NCBI RefSeq assembly: GCF_014642075.1
Contig: NZ_BMIK01000001.1
Location: forward strand, 434,001 to 498,000
Origin: Parapedobacter defluvii
GTDB lineage: Bacteria; Bacteroidota; Bacteroidia; Sphingobacteriales; Sphingobacteriaceae
Direction of reading: 5' to 3'
Length of the DNA: 64,000 nucleotides
Shown here: positions 2,702 to 36,720 of the stretch, in pieces
Layout: each line of letters opens with the position of its first letter
Position numbering within the stretch: position 1 is the first letter of the stretch
The notes under the pieces: model-generated
Database searches by the model: none
What the model saw: the letters and a program-made list of their open reading frames with translations, nothing else
What the model was told of the DNA's origin: nothing
Made by a program: the position numbers and the translations under genes

Positions 2702-3457
2702 ATGAAGAAACGATTTGAAAATCAGGTTGCCTTGGTATCGGGCGGTGCCGATGGACTGGGAAAAGCCATCGGAAGCCGACTGGCCGCGGAAGGTGCAACC
2801 GTTATTTTGGCCGATAAAGACGAAGCGAAATTAGCCGTTACCGTTGAGCAACTGAATGAGCAGGACAGAACGGCTACGGGTATGCCGCTGGATGTAACGG
2901 ATGAGCGATCGGTAGGCAAGCTGTATACGCAAATTGCCAAGCAGTTCGGCCGATTGGATGTGATGGTGAATTCAGCGGGTATCGTCGGCCCCACCAACAC
3001 ACCGATTCAAGCGTATGACACCGCAGCATTTGACGGTATTTACCAAGTGAATCTGAAAGGGACATTCTTGATGACCAAATACGCGATACCCTTGATGACA
3101 GCGCGTAATTACGGGCGTATCCTGCTGATTGCATCCATCGCGGGCAAAGAAGGGAATCCGAATATGGTGGGTTATTCTGCCACAAAAGCGGGGGTCATCG
3201 GCCTGGTAAAAGCTGTGGGCAAAGAGTGCGCAACCACGGGCATTACGGTGAATGGCTTGGCCCCAGCGGTGATCAAGACCGCGATGAATGCCGACACGGC
3301 ACCTGAGCAGCTCCGGTATATGACCGAAAAGATACCGATGGGTAGATTGGGTACCGTGGATGAGGTAGCATCCGTGGCCACCTGGATCGTATCACCGGAG
3401 GCCAGTTTTTCTACGGGGTTTGTGTTTGACATTTCCGGTGGGAGGGCTACGTACTAA
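2702..3457 (+). CDS. SDR family NAD(P)-dependent oxidoreductase (type 1 of the paired module)
   Basis: Classical short-chain dehydrogenase, 251 residues, the usual length. Visible motifs are the cofactor loop GGADGLGKAIG near residue 14, the NSAGIVG segment near 90, the catalytic Ser in IASIAGKEGN, and Tyr-x3-Lys in YSATKAG near 158. No signal peptide, so cytoplasmic. It probably oxidises or reduces a hydroxyl on the imported sugar or its acid. The next SDR gene starts two bases after its stop. The same ordered pair recurs at 30438-31957; this protein is closely similar along its length to that at 30438, including the shared C-terminal end GGRATY. Annotation pipelines may call it 3-oxoacyl-ACP reductase, which the sugar context makes unlikely. 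Confidence 0.88.
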   Translation: MKKRFENQVALVSGGADGLGKAIGSRLAAEGATVILADKDEAKLAVTVEQLNEQDRTATGMPLDVTDERSVGKLYTQIAKQFGRLDVMVNSAGIVGPTNTPIQAYDTAAFDGIYQVNLKGTFLMTKYAIPLMTARNYGRILLIASIAGKEGNPNMVGYSATKAGVIGLVKAVGKECATTGITVNGLAPAVIKTAMNADTAPEQLRYMTEKIPMGRLGTVDEVASVATWIVSPEASFSTGFVFDISGGRATY

Positions 3458-3459
3458 CA

Positions 3460-4215
3460 ATGAACGGGAAAAGAGCTGTGATACTGGGCGGATCATCGGG
3501 TATTGGAAAAGCGGTAGCCATACGCTTCGCTGGCCAGGGGTATCGGGTATTCATCGGATCGTCCGATCTGAATAAAGGCAATGCGGTGTGTTCGGTGCTA
3601 CCGGGCGAAGGCCATCGTGCATTTGAGGTTGACGTGCGAAAGGAGGCACACATCCAATCGCTGGCAAACTGGATTGCCGAAGCGTGCGGAGATTTCGACG
3701 TGTTGGTGAATAGCGTTGGAGTTTCACAGGGAATGCCAGCCCTGGATAGTGATTTCGAAAAATGGGATAATGCATTGCAGGTGATGCTGTACGGTACGGT
3801 AAAAAGCTGCCGGTTGCTCGTACCCTTGATTAAGGATGGCGGGCGGTTGATCCATATCACCTCCATCCACCATGAGCGTGTGGAAATGGGAAGTTCGGCT
3901 TATGGGATGGCAAAAGCTGCGATTACCCAGTTTACCCGGTCGTTGGCATTGGAACTGGCACCGAGGGGTATTCTGGCCAATACGGTGGCACCGGGGTTTA
4001 TCGATACGCCCATGTCGGTCAAAGCGGATGGCAGGAACGAGCTGCAGACGGAGTGGTTCCGTGACAATTATGTGAAATACAATCACCTGCCGTTAAAGCG
4101 TCCCGGGAGGCCGGAAGAAGTAGCCGGGGCAGTTTACTTTCTGGCAGGGCCGGACGCATCGTATATAACGGGATCGGTGTTAACGGTAGACGGGGGACTG
4201 ACAATAACATTTTGA
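3460..4215 (+). CDS. SDR family NAD(P)-dependent oxidoreductase (type 2 of the paired module)
   Basis: 251-residue classical SDR with the cofactor loop GGSSGIGKAVA near residue 9, an NSVGVS segment, a catalytic Ser in HITSIH, and YGMAK as the Tyr-x3-Lys pair. It ends in [10 protein letters not shown], the common SDR C-terminus. Cytoplasmic. It follows the type 1 SDR by two bases, so the two are almost certainly co-translated and may catalyse successive steps or act as partners on one substrate. It is clearly paralogous to the gene at 31202, sharing the [10 protein letters not shown] stretch near residue 206. Substrate unknown. Confidence 0.88.
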   Translation: MNGKRAVILGGSSGIGKAVAIRFAGQGYRVFIGSSDLNKGNAVCSVLPGEGHRAFEVDVRKEAHIQSLANWIAEACGDFDVLVNSVGVSQGMPALDSDFEKWDNALQVMLYGTVKSCRLLVPLIKDGGRLIHITSIHHERVEMGSSAYGMAKAAITQFTRSLALELAPRGILANTVAPGFIDTPMSVKADGRNELQTEWFRDNYVKYNHLPLKRPGRPEEVAGAVYFLAGPDASYITGSVLTVDGGLTITF

Positions 4216-30437: not shown

Positions 30438-31196
30438 ATGATGAGCGAACGATTCAAAGGTCAGGTAGCCGTAATCTCCGGCGGAGCGGAAGGTTTGGGC
30501 AAAGCCATTGCGCTGCGTTTGGCCAGGGAAGGGGCCAGGCTGGTAATAGTTGATTTTAATAAGGAAAAGTTAGCGAAAACTGTCGAAGCACTGGCGATGG
30601 AAGGGCATGAAGTCATGGGGGAAGCCGTGGATGTTTCGAACGAAGATGAGGTAAGGGAAGGTTTCAAAAGTGCGATGGAACGGTTTGGCAGAATTGATGT
30701 CATGGTTAATTCGGCAGGCATCGTAGGTCCGACCAGCACCTCCATTCTGGACTATTCCGTAGCAGATTTCGACAAGATCTATACGGTTAATCTCAGAGGG
30801 GCCTTTCTGATGGCAAAGTATGCGCTGAAGTACATGTCTGAAAAAGGGTACGGCCGCATATTACTCATCGCTTCCATAGCGGGTAAAGAAGGAAACCCCT
30901 TCATGGCGGGTTATTCGGCAACCAAAGCAGGGGTGATCGGGCTGGTGAAAGGACTGGGAAAGGAATTCGCTACCACGGGTATCACCATCAATGGATTGGC
31001 TCCCGCAGTGATCAGAACCGCGATGAATGCCGATACGGATCCGGAGCAGCTGGCATATATGGCGAGTAAAATACCGATGGGCCGGTTGGGAACCGTGGAA
31101 GAGGTAGCTGCGGCGACCAGTTTTATCGTGTCTCCCGAAAATAGCTTTTCAACAGGTTTTATCTACGACATATCAGGTGGCAGAGCCACATATTAA
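30438..31196 (+). CDS. SDR family NAD(P)-dependent oxidoreductase (type 1, second copy)
   Basis: 252 residues. Cofactor loop GGAEGLGKAIA, NSAGIVGPTST, catalytic Ser in LIASIAGKEGN, and YSATKAG. Closely similar along its whole length to the SDR at 2702, both ending GGRATY. It starts eight bases after the dehydratase gene and is followed five bases later by the type 2 SDR. Expected role is NAD(P)-linked oxidation of a sugar, sugar acid or 2-keto-3-deoxy acid in locus B. Confidence 0.88.
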   Translation: MMSERFKGQVAVISGGAEGLGKAIALRLAREGARLVIVDFNKEKLAKTVEALAMEGHEVMGEAVDVSNEDEVREGFKSAMERFGRIDVMVNSAGIVGPTSTSILDYSVADFDKIYTVNLRGAFLMAKYALKYMSEKGYGRILLIASIAGKEGNPFMAGYSATKAGVIGLVKGLGKEFATTGITINGLAPAVIRTAMNADTDPEQLAYMASKIPMGRLGTVEEVAAATSFIVSPENSFSTGFIYDISGGRATY

Positions 31197-31201
31197 AAAC
31201 G

Positions 31202-31957
31202 ATGGTACAAAAAAAAGTAGTGGTATTAGGTGGGTCTTCGGGAATCGGAAAGGCCATTTCGGAACGTTTTGCACAAGAAGGCTATCAGGTTATTATTGCA
31301 TCGTCCGATCCAGCAAAACTGGAGGCGGCAAGGGCGTGCCTGACGGGGTCGGGTCATGAAACATTTCAGTTGGATATCCGGAGTGAAGCACAAGTGGAGG
31401 CGTTTGCGTCGCATATACAAAACACACATAGAGATTTTGATGTGCTGATCAATAGCATCGGAATTTCTGAACATTTGCATGCGGTAAATTCTAGGTTTGA
31501 AGAATGGGACAATGCCTTGCAGGTAATGCTCTACGGAACGGTCAAGAGCTGCCGTGTATTGGTGCCACTGATGAAACCGGGGGGGCGGATTATCCATATC
31601 ACGTCCATCCACTACAGCCGGGTCGAGAAAGGGAGCTCTGCGTATGGAATGGCAAAAGCAGCGATTACCCAGTTCACGCGTTCATTGGCATTGGAACTGG
31701 CTCCAAACAACATACTTGCCAATACCATCGCCCCCGGTTTCATCAACACACCCATGTCGATAGATCCGAACGGGCAGAATGAATTGGAAACGGAGTGGTT
31801 TCAGGACAATTATGTGAAATATAATCATTTACCGCTGAAACGCGCGGGCCGCCCCGAAGAAGTAGCGGGAGTGGCCTTTTTTCTGGCGGGGCCGGATGCA
31901 ACGTATATGACGGGTTCGGTGTTGACGGTAGACGGCGGATTAACCATTACATTTTAG
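31202..31957 (+). CDS. SDR family NAD(P)-dependent oxidoreductase (type 2, second copy)
   Basis: 251 residues. Cofactor loop GGSSGIGKAIS, NSIGIS, catalytic Ser in HITSIH, YGMAK pair, C-terminus [10 protein letters not shown]. Paralogue of the gene at 3460, again directly after a type 1 SDR. The last 147 bases, ending exactly with the TAG stop, occur a second time without change at 33243-33389, beyond an inserted lipoprotein gene. The gene itself is intact. It closes the locus B operon. Confidence 0.9.
   Translation: MVQKKVVVLGGSSGIGKAISERFAQEGYQVIIASSDPAKLEAARACLTGSGHETFQLDIRSEAQVEAFASHIQNTHRDFDVLINSIGISEHLHAVNSRFEEWDNALQVMLYGTVKSCRVLVPLMKPGGRIIHITSIHYSRVEKGSSAYGMAKAAITQFTRSLALELAPNNILANTIAPGFINTPMSIDPNGQNELETEWFQDNYVKYNHLPLKRAGRPEEVAGVAFFLAGPDATYMTGSVLTVDGGLTITF
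31811..31957. repeat. 147-bp direct repeat, copy 1 (3' end of SDR gene)
   Basis: Begins TATGTGAAATATAATC, ends at the SDR stop TAG. Identical base for base to 33243-33389. The flanking bases differ on both sides (T versus A before, G versus A after), so these are the exact limits. Confidence 0.97.
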
Positions 31958-33242
31958 GTAATGGCACTATTAACCTTATTTTCCAAACGTGGCTAGGTCG
32001 CTATAGACAGTAAGCGGCGTAGGGTACTTATTTTGTTAATCTATCTCATTGTAAGTGATTGTCCGGTATGCAAATTGTCTTACGCCTGCAGCATTCTGAT
32101 TCCGGGCGTAATACAATCTTACAACTTTGCTGCCTTCTAAATCGCCATATTCACTGATTAGGTTGGGATATCCTGCCGTTTCCTCTGCATTCTTGCTGAT
32201 GGCTAGTGGCTGCTCCCAAGTAATGCCATCAACACTTGAAGACATATATAGGACACCGTTCCATCCGGCATATACCATGACCCAACGCTTCAAAAAATCA
32301 TTCCACATAACAGACGGGTTGGCCCCAGCCTGCGAGGTTAATCCTGCTAACTTATGATCAACTCCGCCTATACCGGTTTCACTGTCATAACCGTCAATCG
32401 TAAAATTACGACCATCCCACTTTTTCCATGTATCGGGTGAACCGTAAGGATCGTCTGAAGCGGCCATGCAAATTTTATAATCTTCTCCTTCTATATTGGC
32501 TGAGTAATAGCAGATAAACTGCTGCCGGTCTTCGTTATATACCACGCAACCATCGCCCAAACCGCTCCATCGTGCCTCTCGGGGTTTGGTGTAGTTAACA
32601 TTCAATATTTTCTCACCCTTTGTCCATGTACGACCATTATCTGATGAATAGGCTATTCCGATACTTTTAAATGCCGTTAAACTCCCCCATCTACTCTCTG
32701 CATGGAAAAAGCCAGCCAACCTGCCGTCTATTAACCGATGTACACCGATAAACCATGATCCTGCGTCAGTAAAATCCGAGATCTGATTGAATCCTACTCC
32801 AAAAACGCGATTTTGTGGTCTTAATTGATCAATTTGATCCTCTGGAAAGGGCGTATTACCTTCCGTCCTAAAACTATAATTTTCAGCCCAATAAAGCACA
32901 AACTTCTCCGACCCTTCTTCCTTGACGGCGGATATTTTTCCATCCGGCCAATATCCTTGCATATCTACCCCCGACTGGTCTACAATAATTGGTTCAGAAA
33001 GTGAAAAGTCATTCCAGACACCGAAAGCTTTCGGCGCATCGATCTGCTTTTCAATCAGTGACGCATCTTTACTACAGGCGACGTAAAAAAGTGTGCTTAT
33101 AAAAAATATTATCATAGGCTGGGTTCTTCGTTTCATGCTGTTCTTCTAATATTCCAAATAATAATTAATGGAAACACTTTAATTGCTAATGCATTAACCT
33201 AAACGAAAATAATTCGCTGTATATTATCGCTATGCAACAAAA
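31958..33242. mobile_element. 1,285-bp inserted segment bracketed by the direct repeats (no recombinase gene)
   Basis: Lies between the two 147-bp repeats, giving a repeat period of 1,432 bases. It holds one reverse-strand gene and looks more AT-rich than its surroundings. No integrase, transposase or terminal inverted repeat is visible. Recombination between the repeats would remove it and leave the SDR gene whole. Calling it mobile is an inference from this structure. Confidence 0.5.
32036..33136 (-). CDS. Lipoprotein with sialidase-type (Asp-box) beta-propeller, insertion cargo
   Basis: 366 residues, lipobox FYVAC (Cys 21). Two Asp-box-like motifs are readable, SSDNGRTW (about 165) and SSSVDGITW (about 305), typical of sialidase-like six-bladed propellers; other segments (GWNGVLYMSSS, RLYYARNQ) fit blades of GH32/GH43/GH33-like folds. 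No full catalytic set is recognised, so it may be a glycan-binding or hydrolytic surface protein. It runs opposite to its neighbours, is the only gene between the 147-bp repeats, and its codons look more AT-rich than adjacent genes, which together suggest transfer. Confidence 0.7.
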   Translation of the reverse strand: MKRRTQPMIIFFISTLFYVACSKDASLIEKQIDAPKAFGVWNDFSLSEPIIVDQSGVDMQGYWPDGKISAVKEEGSEKFVLYWAENYSFRTEGNTPFPEDQIDQLRPQNRVFGVGFNQISDFTDAGSWFIGVHRLIDGRLAGFFHAESRWGSLTAFKSIGIAYSSDNGRTWTKGEKILNVNYTKPREARWSGLGDGCVVYNEDRQQFICYYSANIEGEDYKICMAASDDPYGSPDTWKKWDGRNFTIDGYDSETGIGGVDHKLAGLTSQAGANPSVMWNDFLKRWVMVYAGWNGVLYMSSSVDGITWEQPLAISKNAEETAGYPNLISEYGDLEGSKVVRLYYARNQNAAGVRQFAYRTITYNEID

Positions 33243-33389
33243 TATGTGAAATATAATCATTTACCGCTGAAACGCGCGGGCCGCCCCGAAGAAGTAGCGG
33301 GAGTGGCCTTTTTTCTGGCGGGGCCGGATGCAACGTATATGACGGGTTCGGTGTTGACGGTAGACGGCGGATTAACCATTACATTTTAG
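33243..33389 (+). pseudogene. 147-bp direct repeat, copy 2: orphan 3' end of SDR gene
   Basis: Encodes the last 48 residues of the SDR at 31202 plus its stop in the same orientation, with no start codon or upstream part. Identical to 31811-31957. Confidence 0.97.
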
Positions 33390-33650
33390 AACATAGCTTA
33401 GAACACAGTCCGCGTACCTGCTGCCTGACTGCTCCTAGACTGCTGCGCGTGGCATTGCCATGTGCCTGCGCTGCGCTGGCAGTCGGTTGGCTGTTTTTCG
33501 CACGCTGACTGCAAGGTGACCGCACCCTGACCGCCAGCTGACTCCCCTATGATACGGCGCCTTTCGGTAACGGTCGGTTGGCAGGGACACGGTCTGCCGG
33601 GTGATTAAACAGTTGACCTGACAAGGTGACGGCATTGACACCCTATGGTT
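33390..33650. repeat. Degenerate 11-bp periodic non-coding stretch
   Basis: No gene is visible. Reading in 11-base steps aligns recurring cores, for example GACTGCTCCTA, GACTGCTGCGC, then GCTGACTGCAA, GGTGACCGCAC, CCTGACCGCCA, GCTGACTCCCC (33505-33548). Opposite-sense GCAGTC/GGTCGG cores also occur, so parts could pair. The period equals that of the clearer array at 35360, on the other side of the Rrf2-QorB genes. Confidence 0.5.
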
Positions 33651-33662
33651 CAGTTACGTAAA

Positions 33663-33683
33663 ATGTAATAATATTTGTTACAG
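33663..33683. promoter_or_regulatory. Candidate Rrf2 operator upstream of the Rrf2 gene
   Basis: Inverted repeat ATGTAAT-N7-GTTACAG. The same layout, ATGTAAC-N7-ATTACAT, stands before the qorB-like gene at 34140. It overlaps the -33 TTTG (33674-33677) of the predicted promoter, which suits autorepression. Confidence 0.55.
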
Positions 33684-33705
33684 TTAAAATGGATGTGTAT
33701 CTTTG
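33674..33705 (+). promoter_or_regulatory. Predicted promoter of the Rrf2 gene
   Basis: TTTG at 33674-33677, 20-base spacer, TATCTTTG at 33698-33705, a full match to the Bacteroidota vegetative consensus. The -7 element ends seven bases before the ATG at 33713, so the transcript would be leaderless or nearly so, and the earlier ATG at 33689 would be excluded. Confidence 0.6.
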
Positions 33706-33712
33706 CCCTGAC

Positions 33713-34123
33713 ATGAATAATACAAGGTTTGCGACCGTGCTGCATATTTTGGCGATGCTGGCGGATAGTGAAGGAGTATGGCTGAGTTCCGATTGGATCG
33801 CGGGAAGTATCAACATCAATCCGGTAATGGTGCGAAAAGAGTTGGGACTCTTGCAAGACCGGGGCTGGGTGGTAAGCCGCAAAGGCAAAGTAGGTGGCTA
33901 CATGCTGCAAACACCGGCCAAAGGCATCTCACTGGCCGACATCTATGGCTTGGTAAAGAATACAGAGGTGCTGGGGCGTAAAAATCGCCATACCAACCCC
34001 CAATGTCCGATTGGTAAGGATATCAACCGGCAACTGGAGGGGCTTTTCTCCCACACAGAAGGACTGGTATCGGGTTATCTACGGGAGATTACACTAGATG
34101 CGTTTGTGAAGCAGTTTCACTGA
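33713..34123 (+). CDS. Rrf2 family transcriptional regulator
   Basis: 136 residues from ATG 33713. Winged helix-turn-helix (about 1-75, TRFATVLHILAMLADSEG, GWVVSRKGKVGGYML) followed by the dimerisation helix. Only one Cys (Cys98 in NPQCPIG) instead of the three-Cys iron-sulfur site of IscR/NsrR, so a thiol or quinone-type switch is more likely than a cluster. It is 43 bases ahead of the QorB-like reductase, and both genes carry the same inverted repeat, which suggests it represses itself and the reductase. Confidence 0.9.
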   Translation: MNNTRFATVLHILAMLADSEGVWLSSDWIAGSININPVMVRKELGLLQDRGWVVSRKGKVGGYMLQTPAKGISLADIYGLVKNTEVLGRKNRHTNPQCPIGKDINRQLEGLFSHTEGLVSGYLREITLDAFVKQFH

Positions 34124-34139
34124 TTTTTTTTGATTTTAA

Positions 34140-34160
34140 ATGTAACAAAGTTCATTACAT
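34140..34160. promoter_or_regulatory. Candidate Rrf2 operator upstream of the QorB-like gene
   Basis: Inverted repeat ATGTAAC-N7-ATTACAT, six bases before the ATG at 34167, matching the arms and spacing of the site at 33663-33683. Binding here would block transcription or initiation. Confidence 0.55.
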
Positions 34161-34166
34161 AATAAC

Positions 34167-35015
34167 ATGGCAAAAATAGGAGTAACAGGTGCGACGGGAC
34201 AACTGGGCCGTCTCGTCATCAAACAATTGAAAACAAAAACGGCAGCAGAAAATGTGGTGGCGCTGGTGAGAAATCCCGGAAAGGCAATTGATCTGGGAGT
34301 CGAAGTGCGGGCGTTTGACTATACTAAACCCGAATCCCTGGGTGAGGCATTGAAGGGCATCGATCACCTGCTGTTGATCTCTTCCAATGAAGTGGGGCAG
34401 CGCAAAGCGCAGCACGAGAATGTGATCCGGGCTGCGCAGCAGGCAGGGGTAAGCTGGATCGTATATACCAGCTTACTGCATGCCGATACGTCTACGCTGA
34501 GCCTGGCAGGCGAGCACCTCGCAACCGAAGAGCTGCTGAAAGCGTCGGGTATTCCGTATACCCTCCTGCGAAATGGTTGGTACACCGAAAACTATACCGG
34601 CTCGGTGGCTGGAGCCATCGCCGCCGGTGCGTTCATCGGCAGTGCCGGTACGGGTAAGATCGCGTCCGCTGCTCGCGTGGATTATGCCGAGGCGGCTGCC
34701 GTTGTACTCACCGACGAAAGCCATCGGAGCAAGGTGTACGAATTGGCGGGTGACGAAGCGTATACGCTGGCAGACCTAGCGGCGGAGGTATCCCGGCAGA
34801 CCGGCAAGGATATTCCGTATAATGACCTTCCCGAGAATGAATACGTCGAAAGGCTGAGATCCTTAGGCTTGCCCGGGAGCCTGGCACATGCCATTGCCGG
34901 TTGGGATGCAAGTGCTGCCAAAGGCGACCTATTTGACGATAGCCATACGCTATCGTGGCTGATTGGCCACCCGACCACGCCGCTCGCGGATACGGTTAAA
35001 GTAGCCTTAGGTTAA
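34167..35015 (+). CDS. NmrA-like NAD(P)H-dependent oxidoreductase, QorB/quinone oxidoreductase 2 type
   Basis: 282 residues, cytoplasmic. N-terminal cofactor loop GVTGATGQLGRLV, then VALVRNPGKA, LLLISSNEVGQR and YTSLLHADTSTLSLAGEH, and NGWYTENY near 137, all typical of the QorB (YtfG) branch of atypical SDRs, which reduce quinones using NADPH. Length agrees with the family. Control by the adjacent single-Cys Rrf2 regulator fits a response to electrophiles or quinones. It is unrelated in function to the sugar loci on both sides. Confidence 0.85.
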   Translation: MAKIGVTGATGQLGRLVIKQLKTKTAAENVVALVRNPGKAIDLGVEVRAFDYTKPESLGEALKGIDHLLLISSNEVGQRKAQHENVIRAAQQAGVSWIVYTSLLHADTSTLSLAGEHLATEELLKASGIPYTLLRNGWYTENYTGSVAGAIAAGAFIGSAGTGKIASAARVDYAEAAAVVLTDESHRSKVYELAGDEAYTLADLAAEVSRQTGKDIPYNDLPENEYVERLRSLGLPGSLAHAIAGWDASAAKGDLFDDSHTLSWLIGHPTTPLADTVKVALG

Positions 35016-35310: not shown

Positions 35311-35557
35311 CCTTGCTTACCTCTCCTTTACTTTTTCTGTACCTTTTTCTTACCCCTTTGGTAAAGAATTGGTATAGCGGAGGTAAGGAACTGGTAGAGA
35401 ATTGGTATAGCAGAGGTAAAGAAATGGTAAGGAACTGGTAAAGAATTGGTATAGCGGAGGTAAGGAATTGGTAAGGAAATGGTAACCGAGTAGTAAGCGA
35501 GAACTAAGGCAGTACTAAGCAAGGGGTAAGCAACTGGTAACCGTAAGGTATAACGTT
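35311..35557. repeat. Inverted 11-bp tandem array (4 reverse units, 5-nt spacer, 18 forward units)
   Basis: From 35360 to 35557 the sequence divides into 18 consecutive 11-mers of the form GGTAAGGAAYT, such as GGTAAAGAATT, GGTATAGCGGA, GGTAAGGAACT, with units drifting toward the right end. From 35311 to 35354 four 11-mers are the same pattern on the other strand (CCTTGCTTACC to TTTTTCTTACC). The two arms meet at CCTTT (35355-35359) and can fold back, CTTACC against GGTAA. Any protein read from it is a shadow. Function unknown. Confidence 0.9.
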
Positions 35558-35694: not shown

Positions 35695-36720
35695 ATGAAC
35701 AGAAGAACATTTATCGGCCACACGGCTATCGGTATTTCAGCAATGGCAGTAAAACCCGTATTTTCCGGCAAAAACGAAGCCCCCTTGTATGGACACAACG
35801 GAAGAACCTATCGTCAGGTGAAAGGCTGGGGCGAATTGGATGCTTCCCGGTTTCCGGTCAAAGATTGCCATGAAATGGTGCAGGACAGTAAGGGACGCAT
35901 TTTTCTGCTTACCAACGAAACCCGCAATAATGTATTGATATACAATACCCGGGGGAAATTGATCGATAGCTGGGGTAAAGAATATCCCGGTGCACATGGC
36001 TTAACCATCGCAGGAAAGGGTAAAGATGAATTTCTGCTCATTACCGATACTGAACGGCATGAGGTGTACAAAACCACATTGGATGGTAAGCTGTTGATGA
36101 CGTTGGATTTTCCCGAAACTGCTGGTTTGTATGAAAAAAAAGAAGCTTATATACCCACGGAAACAACCGTAGCGCCCAATGGTGATATTTATGTAGCGGA
36201 TGGGTATGGACAGCAGTATATTCTGCATTACAGTGCCGATGGTAAGCTAAAAGGTTGGTTCGGTGGCCGGGGCGAGGGAGATAAGTTTCTGGATAATGCC
36301 CACGGCATCTGTGTAGACCAGCGCAGCGGTGATGCTACCCTTTTGATAACTGACCGGACCCGCTGCTGCTTCAAAAGATTTACGATGGCAGGCGAGCTAC
36401 TGGAAATTATCAATGTGCCAGGCGCTTGTGTCTGCCGTCCGGTTATTCACGGCGACTTGTTGTATGCAGCGGTTCTGCGGTCGCCCGACATGAATAACGC
36501 CAATTCAGGTTTCGTGACCATCTTGGATAAGGAAAACCGTGTGATTTCGAATATCGGTGGCTCTGAACCCATATATCGCGATGGAAAACTCCAACCCCTG
36601 TCGCAGCAGCCATCTTTATTTAAACATCCCCATGATGTATGTGTGGACCGGGACGAAAATATCTATGTTGCTCAGTGGGCTTCGGGTAATGTATATCCTT
36701 ATAAGTTTGAACGGGTCTGA
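35695..36720 (+). CDS. Tat-exported NHL-type six-bladed beta-propeller protein
   Basis: 341 residues. The N-terminus MNRRTFIGHTAIGIS is a twin-arginine-like signal. NHL-like repeats follow, with blades such as DSKGRIFLLTNETRNNVLIYNTRGKLI, APNGDIYVADGYGQQYILHYSADGKLKGWFG and DRDENIYVAQWASGNVYPYKFE. Propellers of this kind are often lactonases (SMP-30-like), lyases or binding proteins; no catalytic set is clear. SD-like AGGAAG stands eight bases before the start. Its promoter carries the operator type found in locus C, and it is convergent with the GntR gene, so it is probably a regulon member acting in the periplasm on the same substrate. Confidence 0.8.
   Translation: MNRRTFIGHTAIGISAMAVKPVFSGKNEAPLYGHNGRTYRQVKGWGELDASRFPVKDCHEMVQDSKGRIFLLTNETRNNVLIYNTRGKLIDSWGKEYPGAHGLTIAGKGKDEFLLITDTERHEVYKTTLDGKLLMTLDFPETAGLYEKKEAYIPTETTVAPNGDIYVADGYGQQYILHYSADGKLKGWFGGRGEGDKFLDNAHGICVDQRSGDATLLITDRTRCCFKRFTMAGELLEIINVPGACVCRPVIHGDLLYAAVLRSPDMNNANSGFVTILDKENRVISNIGGSEPIYRDGKLQPLSQQPSLFKHPHDVCVDRDENIYVAQWASGNVYPYKFERV

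Follow-up and report, generated by a model that had tools for sequence, protein, structure and literature searches.

A single putative lipoprotein gene of Parapedobacter defluvii lies between two perfect copies of the 3′ end of a neighbouring gene, an arrangement that is most likely the scar of one sloppy DNA-uptake event, not a mobile element. We propose that it probably arose as a one-off insertion with a long target duplication, through recombination between two molecules that both carried the neighbouring SDR gene and were unrelated past its stop codon. In the window (the whole 64,000-nucleotide stretch of contig NZ_BMIK01000001.1 that was analysed), positions 31811-31957 equal positions 33243-33389 letter for letter, with a start-to-start spacing of 1,432 bp, and the bases beyond differ at both ends. 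An exact repeat of 147 bp is far beyond chance; its first base (T) is a possible chance match. The left copy runs from codon 204 to the TAG stop of a complete forward-strand gene encoding an SDR-family oxidoreductase of 251 amino acids (31202-31957; ORF list and Pfam), and the right copy, identified by the same repeat comparison, is an orphan SDR tail on the forward strand of 49 codons including the stop. A first-pass annotation had called the 147-bp identity, the 1,432-bp period and the end at the stop codon, all of which were confirmed by direct comparison. It had further read the region as an insertion that duplicated a 3′ end and left the host gene intact, a view that was supported.

The two copies enclose 1,285 bp (31958-33242; delimited by DNA comparison and composition), and the only substantial gene of this segment is a reverse-strand ORF of 366 amino acids (32036-33136). 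When the 1,432-bp unit was read circularly, no further ORF of at least 80 amino acids was found except the repeated end of the same gene, and no recombinase gene, upholding the claim of one reverse-strand gene in a unit free of recombinase and integrase genes. A Pfam scan of the flanking genes returned SDR, SDR, enolase-type and Rrf2 families, with no integrase or recombinase among the genes scanned, and none of the inverted repeats listed for the region pairs the two ends of the insert. The right joint (CAAAA/TATGTG) has an in-register overlap of at most 1 bp. Across the left junction lies a perfect 7-bp inverted repeat with a 7-nt loop (CCATTAC-ATTTTAG-GTAATGG, 31944-31964), a feature that is only suggestive. 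Promoter and terminator scans gave counts close to the shuffle expectation.

Upstream of the SDR gene are a second SDR gene, an enolase-superfamily gene and, further up, a sodium:solute symporter gene, which together would form a catabolic-type operon in what we take to be a soil bacterium. The window holds two paralogous SDR gene pairs (2702-4215 and 30438-31957) about 27.7 kb apart, and the second gene of the far pair shows 77% identity with the repeated tail.

The inserted segment had been described as AT-richer and its product as an Asp-box lipoprotein. The compositional difference stands, with a GC content of 42.1% against a contig mean of 48.0%, but it is not extreme (6th percentile of the windows taken along contig C1); the lipoprotein gene itself has a GC3 of 0.40 against a mean of 0.53 (3.5th percentile of 564 ORFs). 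The Asp-box assignment fared less well. The protein scored 20.7 bits against Pfam BNR_2, below the cut-off of 31.4, and had no match in an NCBIfam search; the best PDB matches were sialidases (E = 0.0026), and the N terminus appeared lipoprotein-like when judged by eye. We refer to the product as a putative lipoprotein that is weakly BNR/sialidase-like. A single-sequence structure model of the protein was discarded (mean pLDDT 33.5).

Relatives of the lipoprotein are rare, occurring in 5 of 399 genomes of the family and 2 of 395 of the phylum, with the genome studied here counted in both, and a search of genome contigs confirmed no relative. The closest relative (42%) is encoded in one of the eight other genomes of the genus, at a locus (L037) with an SSF transporter, an FAD oxidoreductase and a GH97 protein, and the 20-kb stretch around it contains no direct repeats of at least 40 nt. 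The DNA of the insert matched nothing elsewhere in its own genome or in the eight other same-genus genomes, and this lack of a match for an AT-rich segment across nine genomes was counted in favour of the insertion of foreign DNA. Collections of plasmids, phages and viral contigs gave no match to the cargo, and an origin from any of these was rejected on that basis. At a locus of a family relative (L039, 9649-17178), a long CRISPR-looking array with 30-nt repeats and variable spacers lies near a weak match to the lipoprotein.

The arrangement was unique in the part of the genome sampled, which comprised 2,046,501 of 5,796,438 bp (35%), window included. Short-unit arrays and contig-end overlaps aside, no exact repeat of at least 60 bp other than the 147-bp pair was present. 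Among exact direct repeats of at least 40 bp spaced 100-15,000 bp apart, it was the sole case on contig C1; contig C2 contained short-unit arrays only, contig C3 contributed a single 42-bp match, shared by two tandem paralogues, and nothing was found in the 40 kb taken from contig C4. Gene tails were also compared with their surroundings (ORFs of at least 90 amino acids, blastn E 1e-4, same strand, within 8 kb; 1,249 + 324 tails). Only one of the 1,573 tails, that of the SDR gene, had a long copy within 8 kb lying outside another ORF, and the remaining matches fell in another same-strand ORF, save for one 25-bp match on C2 located 1,052 bp upstream. A family of similar insertions was rejected, there being no second example among these tails in the sampled 35%. 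This uniqueness argues against a dedicated system. At another locus (L232, 1000-1814), two adjoining small genes have divergent N-terminal halves and 3′ ends that are 94% identical over 145 bp, which suggests gene conversion of the 3′ ends.

The position of the repeat edge at the stop codon is shared by other comparisons of the SDR gene. Blastn similarity to the window ended at 31955-31957 with homologues in two same-genus genomes (G006 and G007), the paralogue in the same genome and a further copy in G006, such that in 4 of 4 pairwise comparisons the loss of similarity falls no more than 2 bp from the stop codon. At five further SDR loci the sequence past the stop codon was different in each. 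Because homologues and paralogues of the SDR gene also diverge at this point, the exact end of the repeat needs no integration system; alleles that have the SDR gene in common but not the sequence past it would give just this edge. SDR homologues in relatives have a single copy of the tail, no lipoprotein gene and unrelated downstream contexts. Neither the lipoprotein gene nor an extra SDR tail was found downstream of the SDR gene at any of 11 SDR-bearing loci, some of them on contigs that end soon after the SDR gene and three of them from G006 and G007, and no genome compared, these loci included, had the SDR and lipoprotein genes side by side without the repeat. The check that the first-pass annotation had proposed, a comparison of the SDR-to-Rrf2 junction among relatives, yielded unrelated sequence after the SDR gene each time, and the three same-genus genomes with an Rrf2 homologue (L056-L058) had no SDR gene in the stretch compared.

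The sequence to the right of the insertion bears on its polarity. A dispersed intergenic element (33412-33568, forward strand; recognised by genus-wide matches) begins 22 bp past the stop codon of the right copy and probably marks what originally followed the SDR gene. The element is about 150 bp long, with nine matches in the same genome (one of just 34 bp), and it was matched in six of nine same-genus genomes, that of P. defluvii included. Sixteen other copies were analysed (L002, L004-L008, L042-L045, L047-L049, L051, L053 and L054), three partial matches of only 36-37 bp (L046, L050 and L052) having been left out before the count. A gene 3′ end lay within 80 bp of the element in 14 of the 16, with a plus-strand gene ending just upstream in nine, a minus-strand gene just downstream in seven and both in two; L048 and L051 do not fit this pattern. 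When 170-bp stretches were placed at random in 325 intergenic gaps of the P. defluvii genome, the criterion was satisfied in 46% of cases per gap and in 22% when weighted by gap length. At the 46% rate the chance of at least 14 of 16 is about 0.0008, a figure to be read with the fact that the copies are not all independent, some adjoining the same genes in different genomes. With the insertion present, the gene nearest to the left of the element is that of the lipoprotein, whose 5′ end is 275 bp away; if the right copy is instead taken as the genuine end of the SDR gene, the site is a typical one. The frequency of gene 3′ ends beside the element, compared with that of random placements, indicates that the surroundings of the right copy are those of an ordinary gene 3′ end, and thus that the right flank is probably the native one and the lipoprotein segment a later arrival; this reading is support, not proof. 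A structured RNA was rejected as an identity for the element, since its consensus fold of 20 pairs has three with changes on both sides and an unfavourable covariation term. An Rfam search of 31000-34700 gave no match at the gathering score and one chance-level match elsewhere than the element, which we leave as an unexplained repeat family.

These observations are compatible with a model in which a resident and an incoming molecule shared only the SDR gene. The resident chromosome would have carried the SDR gene followed by the dispersed element and the Rrf2-family gene, while the incoming DNA, linear or a truncated circle, would have carried an SDR gene facing the lipoprotein gene, as a hypothetical donor allele. 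A homologous crossover inside the shared SDR gene would join the molecules on one side, and on the other side the terminal bases of the incoming segment (...GCAACAAAA) would be attached to the resident SDR gene at codon 204 by an illegitimate join. This would yield a complete SDR gene, the lipoprotein gene and the orphan 147-bp tail. One homologous and one illegitimate joint between two such alleles account for the exact edge at the stop codon, and the other edge would fall at codon 204 arbitrarily. A small circle bearing the tail, as suggested earlier, is one of two physical routes that fit, and not the sole route. The arrangement of the donor and the order of events are what we infer, and entry may have been by transformation, conjugation or transduction. 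The model predicts a donor allele in which the SDR gene is directly followed by GTAATGG and the lipoprotein gene, with no repeat, and an empty site in which the SDR gene is followed by AACATAGC and then the dispersed element. For the copies to be perfectly identical, the event must be recent or the donor must belong to the same species, unless gene conversion is ongoing.

Insertion with long target duplication in Helicobacter pylori was reportedly the subject of a study by Nobusato et al. in 2000. Several reports on H. pylori (PMC1643837; also PMC4978471 and PMC3031569) describe a foreign gene block between long direct copies of the target with no transposase implied, and here too target copies bracket the insert and neither a transposase nor insertion-sequence ends are found. 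The H. pylori cases are often tied to restriction-modification genes and two strains can be compared, whereas the present cargo is one lipoprotein gene and the target, unlike theirs, is a coding 3′ end that terminates at a stop codon. In Escherichia coli conjugation, 56 of 60 clones gave a diagnostic duplication product, and 14 sequenced clones carried partial lacZ duplications of 109-950 bp, which were explained by a truncated circle that entered through a single crossover (PMC3240628). Arrays of immunity genes in Vibrio cholerae have been tentatively put down to homology-facilitated illegitimate recombination (PMC5361080). Both the truncated circle and homology-facilitated illegitimate recombination have one homologous and one illegitimate side, and in the present case the homologous joint would lie within the SDR gene. 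Homology-facilitated illegitimate recombination proper was expected to produce a deletion at the illegitimate side, whereas a join upstream of the homologous end, as here, results in a duplication. The wzy gene of Salmonella Typhimurium DT8/DT30 offers a further comparison (PMC12074656). Features described there are perfect 113-bp direct repeats, a 2,558-bp deletion with no identified recombinase, a circle detected by PCR, deletion in about 1 in 500 cells and reacquisition in co-culture. In both cases long perfect direct repeats enclose one surface-related gene, with no identified recombinase. The wzy repeats, however, are intergenic, with excision, circle and reacquisition shown experimentally, whereas here the repeats are a neighbour's coding tail and excision is hypothetical. 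By analogy, the present case appears to work like those of H. pylori, E. coli and V. cholerae and to have the anatomy of wzy.

Other explanations account for parts of this evidence. The hairpin at the left junction could instead point to fold-back or template switching, in which a fork or repair intermediate left the SDR gene at its stop codon, copied an ectopic or foreign lipoprotein template and returned to the SDR gene at a point 147 bp upstream. The right-junction overlap of just 1 bp in register would suit replication-based template switching, or end joining. However, hairpins of this kind occur at 1.8% of random positions and at 13 of 661 gene ends, a search of the rest of the genome found no copy of the segment that could have been the template, and a first switch exactly at the stop codon is left unexplained, so we regard this route as unlikely. 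An artefact that joined contig ends overlapping at a branch point end to end is highly improbable. The assembly is a draft of 66 contigs, and apart from the 147-bp pair the sample has no non-tandem repeat of more than 83 bp retained inside a contig. Against this, contig termini share exactly 83 bp in 23 pairs, with none longer among the 60 longest matches listed, in a test of a subset of contigs in which 64 of 65 termini were usable. An assembler overlap of 83 bp, which these matches imply, means that the 147-bp repeat is not its overlap signature. There is moreover no N near the joins, the single N of contig 1 being at 687914, and a branch at the stop codon itself needs two real sequences after the SDR gene.

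The remaining alternatives treat the unit as mobile. Some phages and islands, such as e14 in icd, insert at the 3′ end of a gene and restore it. Like them, the insertion has a duplicated gene 3′ end, which here stops at the stop codon, and a preserved, functional host gene, and a tiny non-autonomous element of this kind could have been mobilised in trans. Such phages and islands encode or use an integrase with a short core, whereas neither an integrase gene nor a recognised attachment core was found in the unit. No second copy exists in the nine same-genus genomes, and the cargo is unmatched in the plasmid, phage and viral-contig collections. We consider a site-specific element extremely unlikely, and the kinship to elements integrating at gene 3′ ends that the first-pass annotation had drawn is not sustained: the search yielded no recombinase, no attachment core, no second example in the 1,573 tails of the sampled 35% of the genome and no direct repeats of at least 40 nt in the 20 kb around L037. 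The copies might alternatively be recombination sites of an active cassette, with the lipoprotein gene switched off when a 1,432-bp circle is excised and restored from such circles or from cells nearby, as proposed for wzy. The anatomy closely parallels that of wzy with comparable repeat length and spacing, and the SDR gene would stay intact in both states; but there is no second occurrence in the sampled genome, and the closest relative of the lipoprotein has no flanking direct repeats of at least 40 nt, which makes such a cassette very unlikely. Slightly less remote, though still a long shot, is the broader idea of a live one-gene cassette of Bacteroidota, with the lipoprotein gained and lost by RecA-type crossover, the 1,432-bp circle re-entering any SDR-bearing cell and the SDR tail serving as an integrase-free docking site.

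On the preferred reading, a one-off insertion with long target duplication, the locus offers a clean and apparently recent snapshot of the addition of a single foreign gene, with no visible mobile-element machinery and no damage to the target gene. If this reading is true, the pattern of H. pylori restriction-modification genes, E. coli conjugants and Salmonella wzy extends to a genus of Bacteroidota. The identical copies could let the lipoprotein gene be lost or moved again, and RecA-type crossing over between them could delete the unit and leave the SDR gene intact. Since the two 147-bp copies match perfectly, one PCR suffices to test whether a surface lipoprotein can be reversibly lost.

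The next gene past the insertion encodes the Rrf2-family regulator (33689-34123, forward strand; ORF list and Pfam). It is flanked by 28-nt inverted repeat arms that are 86% complementary (33663-33690 and 34133-34160), possibly paired operator sites. Further downstream, a repeat array with an 11-bp period occupies 35359-35512, upstream of a gene at 35695.
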